NCBI RefSeq assembly: GCF_019649055.1
Contig: NW_026570225.1
Span: forward strand, 3,348,001-3,412,000
Origin: Paramacrobiotus metropolitanus
Taxonomy: Eukaryota; Tardigrada; Eutardigrada; Parachela; Macrobiotidae
Direction of reading: 5' to 3'
Length of the DNA stretch: 64,000 bases
Shown here: positions 3,478 to 55,558 of the stretch, piece after piece
How the letters are laid out: each line of letters begins with the position of its first letter
Position numbering within the stretch: the stretch's first letter is position 1
Notes under the pieces: generated by a model
What the model was told of the DNA's origin: nothing
The model's input: only the letters and a program-made list of their open reading frames with translations
Database searches by the model: none
Made by a program: the position numbers and the translations under genes

Positions 3478-3954
3478 ATGGACACGGCTAAATTGAATAG
3501 AATGGAAAGTGATGCGTCGACTGCATACGATAATGCAGCAGATCGAAACGAAACTGAACGTACTGGTTTATTTCAAAATGGAAATGCCGTACAGTTTGGT
3601 GGAATCGCAGAAAATGAAGAATTCTGGAGTGATATGCACCCGTTGCAGGGGGAATTGATTGAACTGTCGCTTGACCAGAATAGGTTTGAAGCAGCAGTTG
3701 AGTATTGGGATGTCAAAATTGATGATGAAATGAATGTTAATGAATTAAAAGAGATTGCTTGGGCATCTCTATATACTGCACTAGCCTTGCAAAGGAAGTA
3801 CAGTAACGCAAATCGTATCTGTCATGCACTGAACGGCCGCAATACAGACATGGAAATAAGCAACAGTGCTCTAACAGCTGAACTGGTTAAACTGCGCAAT
3901 AAAACTGGGAGTGTAGAAAATGAATGTCGCTTTCAAAAAAACACGAGCAGATGA
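3478..3954 (+). CDS. LTR element ORF1, gag N-terminal region
   Basis: A 158-residue acidic open frame with an ATG start at the head of the coding interior. No conserved motif is visible. It overlaps the next frame by 35 bases in a region with a seven-A run (near 3935), and the next frame is +1 relative to it. Either the two are separate products, or a +1 shift or a sequence error in the A-run joins them into one gag. Position and composition favour the amino-terminal part of gag. Confidence 0.55.
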   Translation: MDTAKLNRMESDASTAYDNAADRNETERTGLFQNGNAVQFGGIAENEEFWSDMHPLQGELIELSLDQNRFEAAVEYWDVKIDDEMNVNELKEIAWASLYTALALQRKYSNANRICHALNGRNTDMEISNSALTAELVKLRNKTGSVENECRFQKNTSR

Positions 3955-5017
3955 ACTGATGAAACGTCAGCTAGCTCTGTTGACAAAAATGGAGGAAATG
4001 CAACAAAAACCTGCTATCCGTGAAAAACTGCAGTACCCGCAAGTGTACGAAGGTATACAAGAAAGCGGTAAAGTAGAACGTTTCATAATGGACTGTGAAC
4101 GATGCAAAGATTTGAATGGCTGGACTGAGAAACAATTGATTGAAAAAGGACTGTCGTACGCACTGAAAGGTGACGCGTATTTGTGGTATGTCGAAAACAG
4201 AAAATTAAATCCAGATAAAGACTGGATTTACTGGAAGACATTGTTAGTTAATCACTTCTCATCGGAGAGTGACCCGGCCGAAGTACGGCAAGCGATGTAC
4301 GCACGTGTCTTCAAAGAGGAAGACACGGTAAATTCGTATGTTGATGGTTTCCTGAATTGGTTTAATACACTTGATACGAAAGAAGAAGAAAGAGTTTCAG
4401 TTCTCGTTCAGGGACTGAAGAAAACCCGAATGGAGTGGTATGGCAAGCTGGTCATATCAAAACCTAAGACTGTTGAAGACGTTATGGCACAGCTGAAAAC
4501 GCTGTACGCACTGAAAGTGCAACGAGAAATGTACGAAAATGATGACTGTTGTGAGTATGAAGATGACTGTGAATATGTGTACAGTGAGTGTGAAAATGGT
4601 AATTTGAATGATGACGACTGTGAATACGATGAAAATTATGAAATCTACAATAATAACGGTAATAAGCCGTACATGATCGGAAATGTCGAAATCGACGTTA
4701 ACAAATGGCGAACCGATAGCGGTCAGCCGATCTGTTTTAAATGTCACGAGTTGCATCCGGCTAAGTACTGTACATTTAACGGTAAATGGAAAGACGTTTC
4801 AAAGGAACCGCCGATTGAAGTGCTTAAGCGTTACAATATGAAACGACTGGAAGCACATTCACTGGAAATACGTACTGTACAATGTGAAGCAAAAGTGAAT
4901 GAAAATGTGGAAACTGAAATGCGGCAGCACTCAAGTTTGCGGGGGCGATCAGTGCCCAATAAGCTACCGCCCGATGCGTTGCAAACGACTGTGGCCAGTC
5001 AAGTTTGCGGGGGGTAA
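3920..5017 (+). CDS. Gag-like protein of the LTR element
   Basis: 365 residues. The central part (roughly residues 35-200) has the helical make-up and tryptophan spacing of the retrotransposon gag domain of Ty3/Gypsy elements, including a motif around NHFSSESDPAEVRQAMY. An acidic Asp/Glu/Asn-rich stretch follows, then a single zinc-knuckle-like cluster CFKCHELHPAKYC. The last 30 residues run across a 68-bp direct-repeat region and end at a stop at 5017. It would form the virus-like particle in an active element. The tail probably marks the edge of the pol deletion. Confidence 0.7.
   Translation: MNVAFKKTRADELMKRQLALLTKMEEMQQKPAIREKLQYPQVYEGIQESGKVERFIMDCERCKDLNGWTEKQLIEKGLSYALKGDAYLWYVENRKLNPDKDWIYWKTLLVNHFSSESDPAEVRQAMYARVFKEEDTVNSYVDGFLNWFNTLDTKEEERVSVLVQGLKKTRMEWYGKLVISKPKTVEDVMAQLKTLYALKVQREMYENDDCCEYEDDCEYVYSECENGNLNDDDCEYDENYEIYNNNGNKPYMIGNVEIDVNKWRTDSGQPICFKCHELHPAKYCTFNGKWKDVSKEPPIEVLKRYNMKRLEAHSLEIRTVQCEAKVNENVETEMRQHSSLRGRSVPNKLPPDALQTTVASQVCGG
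4931..5013. repeat. Direct repeat at the probable pol deletion junction
   Basis: CAAGTTTGCGGGGG occurs at about 4933-4946 and again at about 4999-5012, and the core GTTTGCGGGGG recurs at 6266-6276 just before the 3' LTR. The gag frame ends and the integrase-region frame takes over across this stretch. Short direct repeats at a junction suit a recombination or template-switch deletion of pol. Confidence 0.5.
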
Positions 5018-5771
5018 GCCGGATAATACTGAAGTAGCCTCTATGGCCAAAAATTTTGTAAATGAAAAGTTTTGGAAAGTTGAGCAGCGGAAGTACAAGG
5101 ATACCAAACACTGGTATTACTTGTTCAGAAATCCCATAAAAGCGAAAAATAAATTTCAAAACGAAGAAATTTATCACATGATTGTGAGAAATGGATTGTT
5201 GTGTCGTAAGCGCACAGGAACTGGAATTGACAGAATTGTTGTGCCTAAACAATGGCAAGAAGAACTGATTGATTCAGTGCGAAAAAGATGTGCGAAAAAC
5301 GAATTAATACCGCGTGGAGTGTCAGTTCAACAGTATCTGACCACTCGGTATTATTGGCATAATATGGAGAAAACTATTGAAAATGTTTTGAAGAAATGTG
5401 ATAACGCTGAAGTAACTGGAAATGTTGAAAATGTGTCAGATTGTGCTAAAATGCGTGATATTGAGTGCGTAGCTAAACTGTGCAGTAATTTGCAGATCGA
5501 AAAAGTTGAAATGTGTCTTACGCAGTCGCAGGGAAAAAGCCCGTGCACTACGAACTCGGTGCAATACGAGTATAATTGGGCTGGTCGACGCATTGACGCA
5601 GATGATTATGAAAAATCTGAATTTGTGAATCAGACTTTAGCGGATTTAAAAAATGCTGTAACTGAAGTTGATGGTCAAGAAGTCAAAATGGTGTATGAAG
5701 AGAAGTCCAGTGATGTAGACAATTCGCCTGTGAATTTCTTGGGATTTTATTCCCGAAGATATCCTTTCTGA
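5018..5771 (+). pseudogene. Pol remnant: integrase zinc-region
   Basis: Open frame (extending back to 4899 across the repeat junction) whose middle part, about 5170-5400, resembles the segment before the integrase core of Gypsy elements: a short strand with NGLL, then a basic helix, then a TRYYWHNM-like motif and a cysteine. The expected HHCC zinc ligands are not all present. No protease, reverse transcriptase or DDE core is seen anywhere in the element. The frame ends 500 bp before the 3' LTR; the stretch between looks non-coding. Confidence 0.55.
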
Positions 5772-14734: not shown

Positions 14735-16306
14735 AATACGAGGATGGGGTAAATACACGGGATAGACGAGAAAAAGGGCAAGAATAAGGGATAACCTGCC
14801 CAGGTCGTGCAACACGGGCATTCGACACTGTTTTGCTGACACAAATAAAATAACCGAAAATATTACGCATTAGTACCACCGCAAACTTTATCATTTACAA
14901 CAACACCGTACAAGTATGTAAAACAGTAAAACTCGTAATACTTACATGACTTTTGCACAACATCACAAACGAAAGAAATTCACTTTCTACACATTCTGAG
15001 ATTTTTTGTTTTTCGTCGGTGTATTTGTGATGTCACTGAGCCCCTTAGAATTCTTTTTTCTCTTATTCTTCTGTCGCAGCTTTTCAACTTTTCGCTGTTC
15101 GAGTGCTTCAATCACTTTGCTGTCCGTTGCAATCAGACCAGCCTCCGCCCGCAAACGTGAATCTTTGAGTTTTTTCTTTTTCTGAGGATGAGCGCTCATG
15201 AAATTTTTGTGCCAATCCGCAGCCACTTTTTCCGCGGGAACGGGGGTAGTAAAGCCTTCTGCCTTGGTAATGGTAAACGCCAAAATCTCTTCTATTGCGC
15301 CTTCGGTCAAAAGAGGAATTTTTTGAAGACTTCGGCGCACAACTTGCAGTTCGCTCACGTAAACATTGGCAACAGAAATAGGCAAGTCAGAAACCAGCTG
15401 ACTTGGAACTGGCTCTACATAAGCCCGGCACACCGCATCCGGGTTAAACGGATAAATTCCGGAAGAAACAAACCCAGAGACAATATTGGCAGCCATGTTA
15501 AAATCATTCCACTTTTCCACAATGTGCCGGGCAAAATTCTGTTTGGTAACCTACAAACAACGAAATTCTTCTCACTAATATGTAATCCTCTACTAATACG
15601 TAATGTTCGATGTAATCCTCTTCAGCTTCGGAGAATTTTCTTAGGTGAGCTCCCTTCTTTCCCGTACGCACTCCTCTAAGTTTCTTCCAGAACGAAGTAT
15701 AAGGAACCTTGAACTTTTTCGCAGCTGCATATTGCGAGAGGTTTCCTGATTTGTAGGCTTTCAGTGCCAACGCCATACGATCACTGTAAGCGTGTGGCAA
15801 AGGCAGATCATAAACAAATTCCTCTACACAGTCCGCACTCAAAGGTAGTCCGGAGACGGCGCTGGTAGACCCGAATGAAATCTCTATGGCAGATGCAGAA
15901 AATAAACTGGCAGGTAGCTGTACTTCTTCGCTGATATTCTCATCGCAATACACTATAGGAGGTGAATGCGCTGCTTCGGAGGGAGATTCCGAACTCTCCA
16001 TTTCTTTAAGTTTAATTGAGTGTCAGCAAAATAAAACTCACAAACCAAAGCATAAATGATAATTTGACGAACTCATAAGCAGAACCAAAAGTACTCACAG
16101 TTACAGTGTTACTGTACAAGCAAAGTATTTGAAACAAAATGGCAAAACGGCAGCCCGTACTCAACGGCTAATGCAGTATTCTGTGCGCTAGCTTTCACAG
16201 ACCGCCAGCCTTTGGCGGCTGGCTGTCCTGCACAACACGTGAATGGTTATCCCTTATGTTTGCCTGTTTTTTTGTCTATCCCGTGTATTTACCCCCTCCT
16301 CGTATT
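14735..16306 (-). mobile_element. Pogo-like DNA transposon, internally deleted
   Basis: Inverted repeats of about 62 bp bound the element: 14735-14796 matches the reverse complement of 16245-16306 closely, both containing TCTATCCCGTGTATTTACCCC and GGTTATCCCTTAT. Between them the minus strand codes for the amino end and the carboxyl end of a pogo/Tigger-type transposase with no DDE catalytic domain between. A TA lies close to each end, as Tc1/mariner-pogo insertions require, but I could not fix the exact duplication. Confidence 0.65.
14987..16001 (-). pseudogene. Pogo/Tigger-type transposase, catalytic core missing
   Basis: The first frame (16001-15504) starts at an ATG and holds a psq-type helix-turn-helix at about residues 75-130, with the motif LSQYAAAKKFKVPYTSFWKK, the family's DNA-binding domain. 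The second frame (from about 15545 to 14987) holds the region that follows the DDE domain in this family, GFVSSGIYPFNPDAV, then a Lys-rich tail. The two are joined by only a few bases where some 200-250 catalytic residues should be. A 3' splice-like TTTGTAG precedes the second frame, so the join may be an old intron edge. It could still make a DNA-binding protein without transposase activity. Confidence 0.65.
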
Positions 16307-37079: not shown

Positions 37080-38981
37080 CTAGTGCATTATCGTTTTTAT
37101 CGGATCGTTTCCCGTGTGCTTAGAAGATCTCCCAATAGGAATAAAGATATCAACGGGAGAATTGCTGCTGCTCGGACTTTGTTGATAGCGACCTGAACTT
37201 TGTTGGTTGGCTACCATCTGCTTCACCGTGGGATTGTCTTCATAGCCGGCAACGGGCGCAGAAAAGTATCCCTGTCTGACTGGCGCTGTTTCGTATTTTG
37301 CCTGCATGGAAGCGCTGGGAAACTGCTCACCCGATGAATCCAGTGATTTGCCTAATTTTCCACCGCCGAACAGCGCGGCAATGATTGCCGGAACGGGTTT
37401 GCGATGGTGCTCACGGTCCACTTCGTAGCCCAGCGTGGGATATTTGGCCGGCGAATAACTCTCATCCATGGGCGGTGGCGATTTCTTCTCCTGCACGGTC
37501 ACAGGATCCCGCTTATACTCGGCCTTGGTGGCGGTGAAATACGTGGGATAGTTGGCCGGTTTGGACGGGGCACTGTCGGTTTCATAGGTGATGTCCTGTC
37601 CCGGCGGGGTCACCGTGGCGGCGGCTTGATAGGCAATCGGTTGCTTTAATCCCACGTTATTAAACACCGGATACAAGTCGTATCCGGGCGCAGTGGCAGG
37701 CATTCGCTGTTGTTGCTGTATTTGCTCATTCTGGTAGGGAATCTTTAAAGTGATAGCCGGTAATTGATCATATGTCATCTGTAATTTCTTTTCATGTTGA
37801 ATATTGGGTACCTGTTCATACGCTACTAATGGCTTCTTTTCCGGCATAAAACTGGGCATCTGGTAGATGGTTTTGATGTCAGGATAATTGGCAAATTTTT
37901 CTTGATAGACCATGGGCATTTCTTGCTGTATGATCGGTTTCTTGTTCGTATAAGGATAGCTGCCTAATCCCAGCGCATAAGGATTAGTGCTCGGTGCCGA
38001 GAGGATGGTCGCCGGCCGGTCCGGTTCGGCGGCGGCATAGACAATGGTCGGCTTTTGGGCCAACGCTGTCGGTAGTGGTTTCTGGTAGGTGATTAAGCCG
38101 TCTGGGAACTGTTTGCTGTACATTTCCTTAATATTAATATTATCCGCTGCAACCGGTTTCTCTCCGACCGGAAGAGAATACACGACCTTTTGCTCGCTCA
38201 TCGGCGGAAAGGAAGGGGCTGCGCCGTACGGCATTTCGGCTGCCGGTTTCGCATTCTCTACATAAATGGCCGCTGCGGGTGGCGATTTGCCGATAATGCT
38301 GCCATAATCGCCTTCCAGAATCGCTTTGACGGAGGGAATATTCTGACTGTAGCTGGGCATGTAAGGTGATGCCGGCGGACCGCTTAGCAGGGCTTTTAAA
38401 AATTCCCGATAATTCCCGTACGGAGAACCGGTTAGCGATGTCTTGGGATACACAGATTTGTAGTACGCTCCGCTTTTATCGTACAACGGCTTCGTGGGAT
38501 ACACCAACGGATCCACCGGATACGGATCGTATTTGTAGCCGTAATGTGAATTGGGATAGCTGGATTTCTCCGCCGAATCGGCAGCGCTCTTGAAGACGCC
38601 GATGTCGTATTTGGAGGGCAGTTTGGGCAGCACGACATTATTGGAGGAGTAGGAATAGGGCGCCGGCGGGGGTGGGAAGTAGCGTGGCGAGTATTCCGCC
38701 GGGGGGCCGGGTGGGGGCGGCGGTGGAGGCTGGTAAAAGGGCGGATCACTGCGATACGACGGGGGAAACGGCGGCGGATAGGAGCCGGGATTCAGCGGCG
38801 GATAACTGCCGAAACCCAGCAGAGAGAACAAGCCGCTGAGCGGATTCTGGCCGGCATAATTGGGAAAGGGGATGCTGGGCGCCCCGAATAACTGGCAATG
38901 GACGAACAGCGGCCAAAGTCCCGATAATCCCATTAACGGCATCGCCACTCTGGCAACATCCAGCATAATGTTATTATACAT
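37080..38981 (-). CDS. Secreted Pro/Tyr-rich structural protein
   Basis: A single uninterrupted exon of 633 codons, unusual beside its intron-rich neighbours. The start has a probable signal peptide: the hydrophobic run VAMPLMGLSGLWPLFVHC within residues 12-29, followed by a mature chain starting near QLFGAP. The chain is rich in Pro, Tyr, Ala, Gln and Lys, with polyproline runs at about residues 75-105 and repeated short motifs such as YPPP, KxPxVY and PxxYxxxKP. No folded domain is evident. Such composition is typical of extracellular matrix, cuticle or adhesive proteins with little order; tyrosines may be crosslinked. I do not recognise a named family and the role is inferred. It lies tail to tail with PI4KA, 459 bp apart. 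Confidence 0.75.
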   Translation of the reverse strand: MYNNIMLDVARVAMPLMGLSGLWPLFVHCQLFGAPSIPFPNYAGQNPLSGLFSLLGFGSYPPLNPGSYPPPFPPSYRSDPPFYQPPPPPPPGPPAEYSPRYFPPPPAPYSYSSNNVVLPKLPSKYDIGVFKSAADSAEKSSYPNSHYGYKYDPYPVDPLVYPTKPLYDKSGAYYKSVYPKTSLTGSPYGNYREFLKALLSGPPASPYMPSYSQNIPSVKAILEGDYGSIIGKSPPAAAIYVENAKPAAEMPYGAAPSFPPMSEQKVVYSLPVGEKPVAADNINIKEMYSKQFPDGLITYQKPLPTALAQKPTIVYAAAEPDRPATILSAPSTNPYALGLGSYPYTNKKPIIQQEMPMVYQEKFANYPDIKTIYQMPSFMPEKKPLVAYEQVPNIQHEKKLQMTYDQLPAITLKIPYQNEQIQQQQRMPATAPGYDLYPVFNNVGLKQPIAYQAAATVTPPGQDITYETDSAPSKPANYPTYFTATKAEYKRDPVTVQEKKSPPPMDESYSPAKYPTLGYEVDREHHRKPVPAIIAALFGGGKLGKSLDSSGEQFPSASMQAKYETAPVRQGYFSAPVAGYEDNPTVKQMVANQQSSGRYQQSPSSSNSPVDIFIPIGRSSKHTGNDPIKTIMH

Positions 38982-54075: not shown

Positions 54076-55558
54076 TCATTCGGAAGCGTCATCGTCGTGC
54101 TTCGGAGCGAATGTATCAAGAAATGTTCGCTGATCCAGTTCACCGGGTTCGGGATTATCGGGATCGTCGGCCTTTGTAATGTCGCGAATTCCAATGTCAT
54201 CCGTTCGTCCAGTCTCTTTCAGGTAGCGATTCCAAATGACTGGATACTGTCCAAATAATTCCTTACTCTCGATCTTCCCGCTGTTCAGCTGTTCGCCTAA
54301 CCATTCCAAGAATCCCACCGTCAAAGATTCCCACGCTTTCGCCGATTTATCATCCATGCCCAGCCAGCGGCGAATCTCCTTAACCCGCTTCTGCATGCGC
54401 TCCCTGGCGTCACTCAATTGAAACTTTTGTCCTGGATCGCGTCGCATTTTGGATGCGGCGTTTTTGGCTTTCTCGCGCACGGCTCGCACAATAATGTACC
54501 AAATGGTTTTCTTCTTCAGCAATCCGATTACCTCATCGTTTTTATTCACAAAATACAATACCTCCCCTTCGTAGCCATGTCCTCGACGGATAGCCAGTAA
54601 TTTATCTCCCAAATCCCGATGCTTCACCACTTCGTAACCTGTGACATGCAGGTGGAAAGCGCGACCGACTTCCTGGCAGAAATCGGGCGGAACGCACAGT
54701 TCATCTTCGTACACCGTCGCTTCCAGATCGGTCTTCGACCAGCTGATGAGGAACAGTTTGGGCGCAGTGAGATACGATAAATCTTCAATGTGCTGATAAT
54801 GCGGCAGCAGGATTTCCAACACCGCCGTTAATTTCGTGTGGTGGAAGAAACTGAACAAGGCATTGCGGTCGGCCACGTCCATGGCCTGGAAGAAGGAGAA
54901 ACACGACGACGCCACATCCCGCGCAACAAGGTACCGCGACTCCGAGTACTTTTCAATATCCTTTTTTAAACAACAAATGCACATTTTTCGACCCGGCGAT
55001 CACATAGAAATCACCGTCAATCCACCGCACAGTAAAATGCGCCGCTTCACCGTTCATCTTCTTCGTACAGATCACGCGTTCCGCCTCGGAGATCGGTCGG
55101 ACAAAATACTTTTGGAATTTAAACCCATCTCCGATATCCCGATCGTCATCATCGCCCAGTCCCCCCGTGAATTTCTTCAGTGCGAAGATGACGCAATCGC
55201 TAGTTCGCTCGGATGTTTCTGTGTTGTGCAGCTCCAGCACACAGTTGCCGCGCGCCACGCGCTGTCGAAAGGCCGCATTCTGATCGTACACTTTATCATC
55301 GGGACCGCGAGAAAACACCCTCGCGTCCACCAGTTCGCCTTGTAGATGTTGAGGAAGGATGCCAGTAGGAATGGCTCCGGAAACGCTTTTCAAATTCTTT
55401 TGATTCGCAGTCCAAGATAACCAGTTTTTGGCATTCTGATCGCGCGACGCATCATCGGTTTCTTCCAGCAGATACGTTTTCAGCCGGTCCACAAACTGAG
55501 GCTGAATCAAATGTGATAACTTTTCAAACAACTCTTCTTTAGAAACCAGATGAGCCAT
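54076..55558 (-). CDS. RNA/DNA-ligase-like nucleotidyltransferase, frameshifted once
   Basis: Intronless, ATG at 55558, stop at 54076; two frames meet at a run of six T on the plus strand (54962-54967, A6 on the coding strand). Dropping one base gives 493 residues. Motif I of covalent nucleotidyltransferases is visible as KMNG (Lys167 the likely adenylated residue), followed 19 residues later by GSKN, the same spacing as in T4 Rnl1-type RNA ligases. Later come an LEIL motif (III-like), EGEVLYF (IV-like, near 335) and LLKKKTIWY (V-like, near 350). A basic helical tail of about 130 residues ends acidic. Function as an RNA or DNA ligase is inferred from motifs; substrate unknown. I cannot match it to a named animal gene. 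The shift may be a sequence error, a recent mutation or recoding. Confidence 0.65.

Follow-up and report, generated by a model that had tools for sequence, protein, structure and literature searches.

A candidate Rnl1/Trl1-type RNA ligase of the DUF7920 family in the tardigrade Paramacrobiotus metropolitanus

A 64,000-nucleotide stretch of the Paramacrobiotus metropolitanus genome (contig NW_026570225.1, positions 3,348,001 to 3,412,000; hereafter the window) carries on its reverse strand, at 54076-55558, a coding region that is probably a true animal gene, present in one copy, whose product would be a stand-alone RNA ligase of Rnl1/Trl1 type and a member of Pfam family DUF7920; its frame is most likely broken by an assembly error. 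Judged by its sequence, the encoded protein is most likely an Rnl1/Trl1-type adenylyltransferase acting as a 5'-phosphate RNA ligase, with RNA the presumed substrate by analogy with the RNA ligases that it resembles. A first-pass annotation of the window had proposed a covalent nucleotidyltransferase of this kind in an animal genome, and the proposal was supported by profile alignment with hhalign, by a pattern of invariant columns and by the structure matches of a guided model. The chief uncertainty concerns catalytic activity and substrate, and the frameshift comes second.

Reading frame and DUF7920 membership

The coding region runs from an ATG at 55558, with an in-frame stop upstream, to its stop codon and, once a single surplus base is passed over, comprises 493 codons. 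It is divided between open reading frame (ORF) 1 (54953-55558, reverse strand as for all features of the gene, 201 amino acids), which encodes the N-terminal region with motif I (KMNG) and motif Ia (GSKN), and ORF 2 (54076-54984, 302 amino acids), which encodes the remaining motifs (III, IIIa, IV and V) followed by approximately 130 C-terminal amino acids. The two fuse into a 493-residue protein only if one A of TTTAAAAAAGG, a run of six A residues at 54967-54962, is skipped, a shift overlooked in the first-pass annotation. When the joined protein was compared with Pfam it matched DUF7920 (PF25536) at 31.0 bits (E 1.8e-7), above the curated cut-off of 27 bits for this family, and residues 85-360 (54478-55306) aligned to profile positions 46-314 out of 315, almost its full length. 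The halves alone scored 14.5 and 17.0 bits, below the cut-off and collinear on the profile; because the joined protein passes the cut-off and the halves do not, the two ORFs were taken as one gene. The segment from motif I to motif V alone scored 30.6 bits. The protein is therefore not unassigned, as first described, but a member of DUF7920, and by Pfam scores it belongs neither to PF09511 nor to the RLIG1 family. No function was described for DUF7920, nor was its name mentioned, in the literature searched.

The frame break was also considered as an intron. GT-AG introns able to restore the frame were enumerated and the three shortest, most plausible ones were scored with Pfam: splicing out a 34-nt or 97-nt intron removed the DUF7920 match, whilst splicing out a 43-nt intron lowered it to 21.7 bits. 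The loss or lowering of the match indicates that the sequence across the joint is coding and lies within the domain, and the joint is better explained by a one-base indel within the coding sequence than by an intron. The domain is complete without any further intron, so that the earlier description of the gene as intronless holds save for the frame shift.

In the same assembly, the set of HSP70 matches included adjacent, overlapping matches in different frames inside single exons. An HSC70-like gene (C2:3562500-3564800) ending in GPTIEEVD and a BiP-like gene (C6:856700-858800) ending in KDEL each carry a one-base frameshift at a short run midway through a conserved stretch. The assembly would thus contain residual indels in many places, and genes that look like pseudogenes in it need caution. 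With similar one-base frameshifts in the HSC70 and BiP genes, an assembly error is likelier than a pseudogene at the A6 run (54962-54967); together with the joined-frame Pfam score and the intron tests, these frameshifts make a one-base draft-assembly error the most likely cause of the apparent frame break. If the shift were real, the enzyme would be truncated after GSKN and the gene decaying. Two observations would suit such a pseudogene: a search of the assembly (169.8 Mb in 533 contigs, the same as that searched for partner genes) with the gene returned this locus as the single copy, and the assembly published for Paramacrobiotus sp. TYO was built from Nanopore reads and polished with Illumina reads (PMC8277472), so that, if it is the same assembly, the shift stands in the deposited sequence despite short-read polishing. 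Decay is nevertheless quite unlikely, since the A6 shift is the sole stop or shift in 1.48 kb of coding sequence, the domain spanning both sides of it still scores above the Pfam cut-off, and the frameshifted HSC70- and BiP-like genes are essential ones.

Catalytic motifs and likeness to Rnl1 and Trl1

Motif I (KMNG, residues 167-170, 55049-55060) contains the putative adenylated residue Lys167, numbered as in the first-pass annotation. It is followed by motif Ia (GSKN, residues 189-192 including K191, 54983-54994), motif III (LEILLP, 54802-54819, in which E248 and P252 correspond to E159 and P163 of T4 Rnl1), motif IIIa (LFLISW, 54739-54756, placed by profile comparison with phage Rnl1), motif IV (EGEVLYF, 54550-54570, with E330 and G331 for T4 E227 and G228) and motif V (KKKTIWY, 54496-54516, with K348, K350, W353 and Y354 for T4 K240, K242, W245 and Y246). 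All of the elements originally listed (KMNG, GSKN, LEIL, EGEVLYF and KKK) were present on the minus strand in the order given, although split over two frames. T4 Rnl1 residues K99, G102, E159, E227, K240 and K242 were matched in order by K167, G170, E248, E330, K348 and K350, and columns invariant among phage Rnl1 proteins recur at K167, G170, E248, P252, E330, G331, K348, K350 and Y354; from the sequence, the catalytic lysines and glutamates all seem intact. K191 was proposed by eye as the counterpart of T4 Rnl1 K119, a pair that automatic alignment leaves unpaired.

The likeness to T4 Rnl1 also covers the succession of motifs I, III, IV and V and the distances between them, with the E...P, EG.V and K.K..WY elements shared. 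The protein differs from T4 Rnl1 in having N for D in motif I and 166 rather than 98 residues before the lysine, and in lacking both a PF09511 score and a Pfam match to T4_Rnl1_C (PF20819) in its C-terminal region of approximately 130 residues. The form Kx(D/H/N)G is that of motif I in the adenylyltransferase domain of fungal and plant Trl1 (PMC6592678), a feature shared with the protein described here, and further likeness to Trl1 comes by way of the guided structure model. In contrast to Trl1, the polypeptide carries no kinase or phosphodiesterase domain, and no Pfam match beyond DUF7920 was obtained.

Comparisons with phage Rnl1 sequences were consistent with this relationship. Alignment of the bare protein by hhalign paired motifs III, IIIa, IV and V with a score of 31.9, which none of 200 shuffles reached (maximum 26.8), and against 116 diverse Rnl1 sequences the domain scored 29.8 (shuffles: mean 14.9, standard deviation 3.3, maximum 23.2). 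E248, E330 and K348 fell on columns invariant in 33 of 33 phage sequences under four alignment settings. A motif pattern derived from the columns that 17 phage Rnl1 proteins share without exception matched the protein, and 200,000 shuffles gave no match, so that the arrangement of the motifs goes beyond chance; the result is supportive rather than blind, the gap ranges having been set with the query in view.

Several observations weigh against the assignment. The RNA_lig_T4_1 (PF09511) and RLIG1 (PF17720) models gave no match to the protein at E 10; PF09511 scores 89 bits on T4 Rnl1 itself. Thirteen of 20 invariant T4 columns were matched in one MAFFT alignment, a weak result taken alone as shuffles reach 12. 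The N-terminal part, motif I included, was positioned differently between alignments, and motif I landed on an invariant column only when sequences were trimmed to start near it. The role given to K167 depends on phage Rnl1 columns, this protein being the sole DUF7920 sequence compared. A search of PDB with the protein sequence gave no match. Finally, the single-sequence AlphaFold2 model made without phage sequences was useless (predicted local distance difference test, pLDDT, 36), whilst the model guided by phage Rnl1 sequences (pLDDT 72, predicted template modelling score 0.59) resembled Trl1 and T4 Rnl1 but is not independent, the guiding sequences having been picked to begin at motif I.

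When this guided model was compared with PDB by Foldseek, the top match was Candida glabrata Trl1 (E 8e-5, 17% identity), followed by T4 Rnl1 (E 1.3e-4). Alignment by VIA-align gave a Z score of 9.2 over 168 residues for T4 Rnl1 and 8.4 for Trl1, with DNA ligases ranking lower at Z 5-6, a ranking to be read in light of the bias of the model towards Rnl1. The guided model indicates compatibility with a nucleotidyltransferase fold and is not independent proof of it. Since this fold class also takes in DNA ligases and capping enzymes and the motifs do not reveal the substrate, the protein could have an Rnl1/Trl1-type fold and yet be a DNA-end sealer, a protein AMPylator, a capping-like enzyme or an inactive relative, and the silence of the literature searched on DUF7920 leaves room for this. 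We consider such a function unlikely: RNA ligases head the list of PDB matches and DNA ligases come lower, even if the model favours Rnl1, and the apparently intact catalytic lysines and glutamates speak against an inactive relative. A probable link between DUF7920 and Rnl1-type ligases is drawn in this analysis.

Origin of the gene and its surroundings

The uninterrupted coding region had earlier been taken as a possible sign of retroposition or of transfer from outside animals, and bdelloid rotifers do carry transferred RNA ligases (PMC10809525, PMC11258130). Recent acquisition from bacteria, phages or fungi, or retroposition, is however very unlikely for this gene. The gene has a native G+C content at third codon positions (GC3 0.573; three coding stretches nearby lie at 0.584-0.591 and a fourth at 0.476). 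No target-site repeats were found flanking the gene, short two-copy chance repeats being the only ones present and none of them in flanking position, and no paralogous parent gene exists in the genome. Scans for close relatives of the protein in IMG/VR, GTDB contigs, phages and plasmids, collections that exclude fungi and other eukaryotes, returned none. T4 Rnl1 alone as query likewise gave no match in the GTDB contigs, and a DNA pattern of motifs IV and V recovered 37 stretches over IMG/VR, of which none was related. Retroposition and recent transfer are thus unsupported, whilst an old transfer from a eukaryote may have occurred.

Approximately 340 bp separate the ATG at 55558 from the apparent start codon of a divergently oriented neighbour, a putative methylmalonate-semialdehyde dehydrogenase gene. 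Elsewhere in the window, overlapping ORFs at 3478-5771 on the forward strand hold retroelement-like remains (a gag-like stretch and a weak integrase zinc-binding match), and two adjoining ORFs at 14987-16001 on the reverse strand, one with a Psq helix-turn-helix, probably represent a broken pogo-like transposase. A proline- and tyrosine-rich ORF of 633 amino acids at 37080-38981 on the reverse strand, with no Pfam match, perhaps encodes a secreted structural protein.

Partner genes and a possible sealing pathway

By analogy with Rnl1, Trl1 and RLIG1, the active-site motifs suggest that Lys167 would attack ATP to form lysyl-AMP, that the AMP would then be moved onto the 5'-phosphate of an RNA, and that the 3'-OH of another RNA end would attack to seal the strand, with E248, E330, K348 and K350 holding the nucleotide and metal. 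RNA ends would be healed beforehand by separate proteins, a CNPase-like phosphodiesterase/kinase and CLP1, and Tpt1 would clear any 2'-phosphate left behind after sealing, in the manner of the lancelet and yeast pathways, with RtcB operating alongside.

Partners for each step of the 5'-phosphate pathway (phosphodiesterase, kinase and Tpt1) are all encoded in the same genome. Tpt1/KptA (PF01885) was found at C2:3484080-3484604 (E 2.3e-56), together with CLP1-family kinases (PF16575), RtcB and two loci for CNPase-like proteins (PF05881) with H-x-T motifs in the exons read. The CNPase-like genes, at C210:76500-81500 and C210:97000-102000, are near-identical and lie approximately 21 kb apart; in the exons read, both combine a kinase-like part with a 2H phosphodiesterase part (HVT and HIT motifs). 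The pair either arose by tandem duplication not long ago or reflects haplotypes that the assembly left uncollapsed. Given the presence of CNPase-like, CLP1, Tpt1 and RtcB genes, both sealing routes look possible, and a heal-and-seal pathway in this genome is plausible by comparison with known systems.

Animals were long thought to seal RNA through RtcB only. RLIG1 and BfRNL are exceptions with a patchy distribution. RLIG1 (C12orf29), which belongs to the same superfamily, is likewise found in animals and joins RNA 5'-3' in an ATP-dependent manner (PMC9931718, PMC11494293); it is known in vertebrates and some molluscs (PMC9931718), and differs from the protein described here in its length and lysine position (325 amino acids and Lys57, against 493 and Lys167) as well as in the PF17720 score that the latter lacks. 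A separate RLIG1 was not found in the genome by a PF17720 search, a weak negative; the whole-genome search with PF25536, PF09511 and PF17720 gave no match at all and carries little weight, as PF25536 also missed the candidate itself. BfRNL, a stand-alone 5'-3' RNA ligase of the lancelet Branchiostoma floridae (PMC3400036), is the closest animal precedent; the lancelet system as described (PMC4090602) shares with the present one a ligase that stands alone and the presence of CNPase-like, CLP1 and Tpt1 genes. With RLIG1, BfRNL and the bdelloid RNA ligases already found in animals, the earlier suggestion that RNA sealing would be a novelty in this group was only partly right.

A broader reading can be offered tentatively, as possible though less than probable: DUF7920 may be an unrecognised family of BfRNL-type RNA ligases that act on 5'-phosphate ends in animals, and perhaps in eukaryotes more widely. 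Such an enzyme would have been kept in a protostome that also has RtcB, and would work together with CNPase and Tpt1 in repairing RNA or in alternative splicing of tRNA or mRNA, possibly in connection with stress tolerance in tardigrades. Through a protostome protein, the analysis assigns a Pfam family so far uncharacterised to a probable class of enzyme, and with enzymes for healing and clean-up also encoded in this genome, a heal-and-seal pathway of yeast type becomes directly testable outside vertebrates and lancelets. If true, such a pathway would be of interest in a stress-tolerant animal with suspected RNA repair.
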